Of a stretch of 64,000 nt of DNA, positions 22,301-26,588 are shown one piece after another. The notes below the pieces were generated by a model, which worked only from the letters and a program-made list of their open reading frames with translations, was not told where the DNA came from and did no database searches. The translations under genes were made by a program, and so were the position numbers. Source of the stretch: Crossiella cryophila (GTDB lineage: Bacteria; Actinomycetota; Actinomycetes; Mycobacteriales; Pseudonocardiaceae); the NCBI RefSeq assembly GCF_014204915.1, contig NZ_JACHMH010000001.1, positions 1,488,001-1,552,000 on the forward strand. Direction: 5' to 3'. Each line of letters begins with the position of its first letter. The stretch's first letter is position 1.

Positions 22301-24588
<2,288 letters not shown>

Positions 24589-24592
<4 letters not shown>

Positions 24593-25701
24593 ACACGGAC
24601 AAGCAGCAGGGACGGCCCGCCTTCGACCACACCAGGGCGGAGGCGGCCGTCCGTGAACTACTCCTGGCCTGCGGCGAGGACCCGGACCGGGACGGCCTCA
24701 AGGACACCCCGTCCCGGGTCGCCCGCGCCTACCGCGAGATGTTCGCCGGCCTGTACACCGAACCCGATTCGGTGCTGAACAAGACCTTCGACGAGAGCCA
24801 CGAAGAACTGGTCCTGGTCAAGGACATCCCGATGTATTCGACGTGCGTGCCGAGCAAGCAGACGGTCAACGCCGTCGGCGGGCGCAAGGCCGCCAGGGAT
24901 GTCCGCATCGGCGACCGGTTGTGGACCCTGGCCGACGGACGCGTGCAGCAGACCGAGGTCACCGAGGTCACCGCCCGACCGGCCCGCGAGCTGGTCGAGG
25001 TCACCACCGAGGAGGGCCGCTTCGTCCTGACCCCGGACCACCCCCTGGCAACCCCGGAGGGCTGGCAGGAGGCCAAGGACGTCGGCGGCAGCTACCTCGA
25101 GTGGACGCCGCTGGCCGACCTCGGCACCCAGCTCGTCCGCCCGATGACGCTTGCCGGTGCTCGGGTGCCGGTGTTCGCGGGCGGGGACGACTGGACGGTG
25201 CGGCACGGGTTCGCCCAGGACACGCACCGCACCGAACTGGTCGACTCGCGCTGGACCCGGGTGCTCTCGGTACGACCGGTCCAAGCGGCCGAAACCGTAT
25301 ACAGCTTCACCTGCGACCCCCATCCGACCTTCCTGGTCGCCGGGCACCTCACGCACAACTGTGAGCACCACCTGGTGCCCTTCCACGGGGTCGCGCACGT
25401 CGGGTACATCCCGAACAGCCACGGCCGGGTCACCGGCCTGTCCAAGATCGCGCGGCTGGTCGATCTGTACGCCAAGCGGCCGCAGGTGCAGGAACGGCTG
25501 ACCTCGCAGGTGGCCGACGCGGTGGTGCGCAAGCTGGATCCGCGTGGGGTGATCGTGGTGATGGAGGCCGAGCACCTCTGCATGGCCATGCGCGGGATCC
25601 GCAAACCGGGGTCGCGCACGATCACCTCGGCCGTCCGTGGTCTGCTGAAGACCTCGGCCTCCTCTCGGGCCGAGGCGCTGGAGCTGATCAAGGGACGGTG
25701 A
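24589..25701 (+). CDS. folE: GTP cyclohydrolase I interrupted by a mini-intein
   Basis: 370 codons, of which 85 N-extein and 113 C-extein residues make a 198-residue FolE, the normal size, closely like M. tuberculosis FolE. The N-extein carries RAEAAVREL and [16 protein letters not shown]; it ends MYST. A 172-residue intein follows, then [10 protein letters not shown] resumes. In E. coli the equivalent Cys and second His of CEHH plus the Cys of EHLCMAMRG bind zinc and the first His is catalytic; all are present after splicing. The enzyme makes dihydroneopterin triphosphate, the first folate step. No ATG, GTG or TTG lies between the ftsH stop and the conserved region, so I infer a CTG start overlapping that stop (CTGA), with a distant GTG 24469 less likely. 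Its stop overlaps the folP start. Confidence 0.9.
24844..25359 (+). other. mini-intein inside folE at the zinc-ligand cysteine
   Basis: 172 codons, in frame, absent from FolE homologs. It starts with Cys, has block A-like region ([11 protein letters not shown] about residues 19-29), block B TPDH (about 63-66, in [13 protein letters not shown]), a block F-like [20 protein letters not shown] segment, and ends His-Asn before a Cys +1 residue. All class 1 splicing residues are present: N-terminal Cys1, block B Thr and His, penultimate His, terminal Asn, Cys +1. There is only room for about 75 residues between blocks B and F, so no homing endonuclease is present. The usual block F Asp position is Ser here. 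Confidence 0.93.
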
Positions 25702-26588
25702 ACGTGATGGGAGCGGCGCTGCATCGGCTGCTGCCCGACCCCGGCCGGTGTGTCGTCATGGGCGTGGTCAACGTGACCCCGGACTCCTTCTCCGACGGCG
25801 GCCGCTACCTGGACACCGCGGACGCGGTCTCGCATGGCATCGAGATGCATCGGCGGGGCGCCGACCTGGTCGATGTCGGTGGCGAGTCCACCCGGCCGGG
25901 AGCGGAGCGGGTGGCGCCGGAGGTCGAGGCCGCCAGGGTGGTGCCGGTGATCCGGGAGCTGGTGGCCGAGGGCGTGCCGGTGAGTGTGGACACCATGCGC
26001 TCGGAGGTGGCGCTGGCCGCGCTGGCGGCTGGGGCGAGCATCGTCAACGACGTCTCCGGCGGGCTGGCCGACGAGCGGATGGCCGCCGTGGTCGCCGAGG
26101 CCGGGGTGCCCTGGATCCTGATGCACTGGCGTGGGCACAGCGCGGGCATGGACCTGCTGGCCAGTTACCGGGACGTGGTCGCCGACGTGCGCGCCGAGCT
26201 GACCGCCAGGGTGGACGCGGCACTGGCCGCGGGAGTGGCCCCGGAGGCGCTGGTGGTCGACCCCGGACTGGGCTTCGCCAAGACCGACCGGCACAACTGG
26301 GCGTTGCTGCAACACCTCGACCAGATCATCGATCTGGGTTTCCCGGTGCTCGTCGGGGCCTCCCGGAAGCGGTTCCTGGGTAGCCTGCTCGCTGGACCGC
26401 ACGGCACACCGCGCAGTCCGGACGGCCGGGAGGCGGCCACCTCGGCGGTGTCCGCGCTGGCCGCGGCGGCCGGTGCGTGGGGGGTGCGGGTGCACGATGT
26501 GCACGGCTCGCTCGACGCGGTGGCGGTGGCCTCGGCCTGGGCTCGCGGCGGGGTGCGCGCGGCAGTGGCGGAGAAGGGGGATCGGTGA
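25698..26588 (+). CDS. folP: dihydropteroate synthase
   Basis: 296 residues from GTG 25698, overlapping the folE stop (GTGA); ATG 25707 is an alternative. The DHPS hallmarks are present: [19 protein letters not shown] near residue 20, [11 protein letters not shown] near 57-67, and GASRKRFLG near 220. It condenses 6-hydroxymethyl-dihydropterin pyrophosphate with p-aminobenzoate and is the sulfonamide target. It is followed by folB with another GTGA overlap, so folE-P-B are translationally coupled. Confidence 0.97.

Follow-up and report, generated by a model that had tools for sequence, protein, structure and literature searches.

The folE gene, encoding GTP cyclohydrolase I, is interrupted in the soil bacterium Crossiella cryophila, whose genome is a single contig of 10.06 Mb. 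Within the stretch of 64,000 nucleotides that we analysed from it (the window), 516 nucleotides at 24844-25359 insert 172 codons in frame and split folE between MYST and CEHH. An initial annotation, made from the sequence alone, described a mini-intein with class 1 motifs, and its coordinates, length, frame and motifs (Cys1, TPDH, a terminal His-Asn and Cys+1) are all found as described. The exteins, of 85 and 113 residues (the second starting with CEHH), add up to the FolE of 198 residues that had been claimed, and matches of FolE families to the precursor fall into two stretches, one per half. Cys+1 aligns with residue 110 of the Escherichia coli FolE chain 1fbx, which we take to be a zinc ligand, in line with the proposed insertion at a zinc-ligand cysteine. 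We conclude, with a probability of about 0.92, that a class 1 mini-intein interrupts the sole folE of the genome, having arrived by homing and since lost its endonuclease, and that it is kept because its host is needed. The kind of element is known and its host gene, folE, is new; as the initial annotation suspected, we found no described FolE intein in the literature searched, by titles and beginnings of abstracts (open-licence papers, with intein databases outside this scope).

The insertion is in frame within a conserved protein, its flanks form a complete FolE, and folE is uninterrupted in a relative from the same genus (G185). Cys1 is present in all 37 rows of our alignment of FolE inteins, each of which also ends in HN followed by C, and the TxxH motif of block B reads TPDH. 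The predicted model of the insert has the Hint fold, and the Pfam family Intein_splicing matches it through the final residue (3.2e-5, 24.2 bits). No LAGLIDADG match was obtained with the query P0001 at E up to 1, and the insert has 172 residues versus 324 in the forms of G187 and G188, two other genomes of the genus, which marks it as a mini-intein. Class 3 inteins lack an N-terminal nucleophile and have an internal Cys at position 4 of block F; this class was ruled out on the presence of Cys1, and position 4 is presumably a Ser. Identity to class 1 mini-inteins (the Ssp and Npu DnaB and Mtu RecA splicing domains) is 14-20% over four rows; unlike in these, the host here is a folate enzyme and the profile score lies below the Pfam cut-off. 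A profile built from 23 FolE inteins reaches the structures 7qsu (2e-6) and 7qss (1e-5). Both long FolE inteins scanned (L017 and L051) carry LAGLIDADG_3, which places them with LAGLIDADG-bearing inteins such as TliVMA (7qsu), whereas the window copy has no endonuclease.

Several points weigh against this interpretation. The Intein_splicing match, which bears out the Hint/intein assignment of the initial annotation, does so below the curated threshold (24.2 bits for a gathering score of 35.8), and the TIGR01445 match is also under its cut-off. Searching PDB sequences with P0001 as a single query gave 26 rows and no intein at E below 1; the best (E 0.5) were dihydroorotate dehydrogenases, and weak rows at E around 2 were chains described as BIL2 domains. 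The ratio of nonsynonymous to synonymous substitution rates (dN/dS) over the whole intein is 0.39 for the nearest pair, the window and G186, from few changes. Splicing itself is a prediction from the sequence and the modelled fold, and cells that take up folate might depend on it less.

The same insertion site is occupied widely. With P0001 as query and a threshold of 1e-6, 43 of 390 family genomes match; dropping G058 brings this to 42 and leaves 348 without a FolE-intein match. An open insert lies at this very site in FolE in 41 of the 42 (17 mini, 24 long), the exception being G145 (L102), whose intein is interrupted by a frame break and which was counted as a 25th long genome. The minis have 163-181 residues and the long forms 296-336. 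Named loci come from Crossiella, Actinokineospora, Actinophytocola, Herbihabitans, Amycolatopsis, Halosaccharopolyspora and Prauserella, with further ones in Thermomonospora and in one Rokubacteria metagenome-assembled genome. The latter (L051) is a same-site, endonuclease-bearing FolE intein from a different phylum. In a class-wide sample the long form matches seven of 394 genomes, the window's own and six of a genus that identical sequences in named records show to be Streptomyces, so FolE inteins outside the family rest on the Thermomonospora and Rokubacteria loci (L046, L051). At L030 (G115), the N-extein frame also looks broken upstream. Two weak family relatives, G058 (L103) and G215:C6 (L106), proved to be Hint-domain proteins other than FolE. 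A phage or plasmid origin was dropped: tblastn of P0001 gave only a weak match (E 1e-3) to two records of Caulobacter phage CcrBL9 and none in plasmids, and no relative was confirmed among 11 candidate stretches of viral contigs scanned with the long form.

Empty, full and mini alleles coexist in a single genus. Among its five genomes, G185 is empty: its folE is uninterrupted, the flanks can be aligned, and nucleotide identity is 91% across the C-extein. The 324-residue form is found in G187 and G188, and the 172-residue form in the window and G186, whose two copies are 92% identical. In a tree of 41 splicing domains (39 family rows with L046 and L051, excluding L007 and L009, missed by the pattern, L102 of G145 and identical copies), the mini pair joins one long form of the genus within the genus clade (95/81, short branch), and at least five long/mini changes are required. 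This pattern fits a homing cycle with repeated loss of the endonuclease, if the direction of change is as we infer. The splicing blocks are under strong purifying selection and the linker is weakly constrained: dN/dS for the window versus G186 is 0.25 in residues 1-90, 0.62 in the middle and 0.00 in the last 24, and versus G187 it is 0.07, 0.61 and 0.20, respectively.

The history would then start with a LAGLIDADG-bearing intein, presumed active in homing, that invaded the conserved codons specifying the zinc site of FolE. The endonuclease domain would have been lost in the ancestor of the window species and its close relative, in which case the linker at 25135-25182 may be the scar of that deletion, while the splicing domain would have stayed because it sits in a needed gene and splices well enough. 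The precursor would be translated as a single chain, Cys1 and Cys+1 would perform the acyl shift and branch formation, and the terminal Asn would cyclise, releasing the intein and joining MYST to CEHH, which would let the FolE zinc site form. Self-excision with extein ligation, like its efficiency, is predicted here from the sequence. Splicing is very probably needed in this strain unless folate is taken up, because no second class I FolE and no FolE2 were found in the genome. Among the 17 intein genomes with exactly two folE matches (the two halves), 16 have no FolE2; the other is G014. The long-intein genomes G187 and G188 have an additional folE match and FolE2, and the mini-bearing pair has neither.

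Is the mini-intein kept as a post-translational switch, in which zinc or oxidation at Cys1 and Cys+1 would hold FolE inactive and so set folate synthesis? The initial annotation had hypothesised gating of this pathway by zinc, redox or temperature. Both nucleophiles are Cys, the second being the presumptive zinc ligand, and the block F Cys is invariant in the 37 rows. Minis are also commoner where there is no further folE match (11 of 17 family genomes, versus 6 of 25 with further matches; split read by eye from the table of folE matches; Fisher p 0.012, uncorrected for kinship), a lead that leans towards a role. Zinc inhibition of Cys-based splicing, invoked in the initial annotation, does occur in mycobacterial DnaB inteins: in DnaBi1 of Mycobacterium smegmatis the metal blocks splicing by binding the initiating Cys (PMC7360933), and the catalytic Cys of the FolE intein could bind zinc likewise. 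However, DnaBi1 initiates from Cys118 (PMC7360933) and is class 3 by PDB titles, while the FolE intein has Cys1. There is also no sign of special sensitivity compared with other inteins: the lone N-extein Cys is at -58, with none close ahead of the splice junction. Most family genomes do without the intein, and homing into conserved active-site DNA predicts the same position. An ordinary homing history, with three kinds of allele in a single genus, accounts for the insert and needs no switch, and we consider regulation of this kind improbable.

Still more doubtful is a dead Hint domain that has lost splicing and leaves FolE inactive. The drifting linker and the broken frame in G145 would suit such decay, but the catalytic residues are all intact, the splicing blocks are constrained and the genome has no other FolE or FolE2 to fall back on. 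An assembly or sequencing artefact, for which we found nothing in favour, can be dismissed given G186, where an intein with 92% identity occupies the same site, and the open inserts in 41 family genomes and the named records, which argue against both chance and error.

Table 1. Features of the interrupted folE gene, in window positions (pLDDT, predicted local distance difference test).
Feature	Position	Strand	Basis or remark
folE N-extein, 85 residues, C-terminal KDIPMYST	24589..24843	+	Probable CTG start that overlaps the TGA stop of the preceding gene
FolE mini-intein, 172 residues	24844..25359	+	Motifs, profile match, relatives, predicted model
Cys1 codon, presumptive first splicing nucleophile	24844..24846	+	Invariant in 37/37 rows of alignment A2
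Block B TPDH motif	25030..25041	+	T, D and H invariant in 37/37 rows
Low-confidence linker, roughly at the LAGLIDADG endonuclease site of longer relatives	25135..25182	+	pLDDT <50 at model residues 102-117; long/short alignment
Blocks F and [23 protein letters not shown], catalytic His-Asn at end	25294..25359	+	Motifs, long/short alignment, 37-row alignment
Block F Cys157	25312..25314	+	Invariant in 37/37 aligned FolE inteins
Cys+1, nucleophile on the C-extein side and presumptive zinc ligand of FolE	25360..25362	+	Aligned to residue 110 of 1fbx
folE C-extein, 113 residues plus stop	25360..25701	+	FolE family matches; alignment with 1fbx

The gene lies downstream of what we take, by motif, to be an ftsH-like reading frame and upstream of a folP-like one. 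Its start is probably a CTG at the upstream stop: the two overlap as CTGA at 24589-24592, an arrangement common to all five Crossiella-group genomes, the empty-site one included. No promoter or terminator match was found within 24400-25900. The same genome contains a second intein-like insert (L002, G000:C1:8527686-8527928, minus strand), with a Hint-like stretch that begins at a Cys and, in part, shares 36% identity with the FolE intein; its host presumably is a DNA gyrase/topoisomerase A subunit, by motif.

Relatives of a different kind occur in Streptomyces. Some members of this genus have an uninterrupted folE, and close downstream of its stop lies a gene of about 330 codons that, in near-complete matches, shares 53-60% identity with the long FolE intein. 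The long form matches 28 of 295 Streptomyces genomes at 1e-8, several of these matches being partial or weak. The copies (L052-L059, L107-L111, L113, L117-L136) are splicing-dead and endonuclease-bearing, and several are truncated or frame-broken. We retained 17 rows of more than 300 residues (14 different sequences), leaving out broken copies, some missed by the start pattern (L109, L129) and L052, where the gene is present and the wrong frame was picked. Three rows (L057, L124, L108) have no normal C-terminus, so that their C-terminal residue counts are alignment artefacts, and 14 complete rows remain (12 different sequences). Block A begins 70-81 nucleotides past the folE stop in 16 of the 17 rows, and at 240 in L120. 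Gly occupies the Cys1 position and the block B His is replaced in all 17; the 14 with a complete C-terminus all have Arg for the penultimate His and another residue for the terminal Asn. Of the two LAGLIDADG motifs, the Asp residues at 116, 216 and 218 are retained in 17 of 17, and dN/dS is 0.08-0.25 in the endonuclease domain and 0.09-0.75 in Hint-N (19 of 66 pairs, those above 72% identity). The predicted model of the free-standing protein has a mean pLDDT of 91.0, and its top structural matches are endonuclease-bearing inteins.

By motif pattern, the gene is absent from 26 of 30 folE loci tested, which are the closest folE matches and not a random sample. At least three such loci (L144-L146) share both flanks with gene-bearing ones, and at another (L158, G871) folE is followed directly by a weak match, probably a remnant of the gene. 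A hairpin is predicted just upstream of the gene start in 14 of 14 sequences (L053:2940-2992 and 13 equivalents), with differing stem sequences, and from these models perhaps covers the ribosome site. At L155, a locus without the gene, the hairpin seemingly persists, perhaps as a relic of a lost copy.

These genes recall the yeast WHO element, which adjoins FBA1 (PMC7282813): in both cases (WHO/HO in yeast), a free-standing, intein-like endonuclease sits directly behind a conserved metabolic gene. Unlike for WHO, we found no duplicated 3' fragment of the host gene behind the Streptomyces copies at 25 loci, where only weak pieces (E 0.055 or worse) appeared apart from folE itself; the loci taken from the genome search extend over about 1.5 kb of flank, and a fragment may lie farther off. 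We would give even chances to a scenario in which the FolE intein family left its protein in Streptomyces, lost the splicing residues and kept a selected LAGLIDADG endonuclease, perhaps hairpin-shielded, that stands free behind an intact folE and, hypothetically, homes there: a bacterial counterpart of WHO whose full, mini and empty relatives are extant in the Pseudonocardiaceae. No description of such copies came up in the literature searched either.

Neither the relatives with an endonuclease nor the free-standing copies in Streptomyces were within reach of the initial annotation, which was made from a single sequence. With a single-copy folate enzyme that apparently depends on splicing, growth or folate levels could report on splicing in the native host, and the genus concerned has empty, endonuclease-bearing and mini alleles side by side. 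Were splicing to respond to zinc, metal status would be tied to folate supply. The Streptomyces copies make it possible to test how an intein turns into an independent endonuclease gene, a transition rarely seen.
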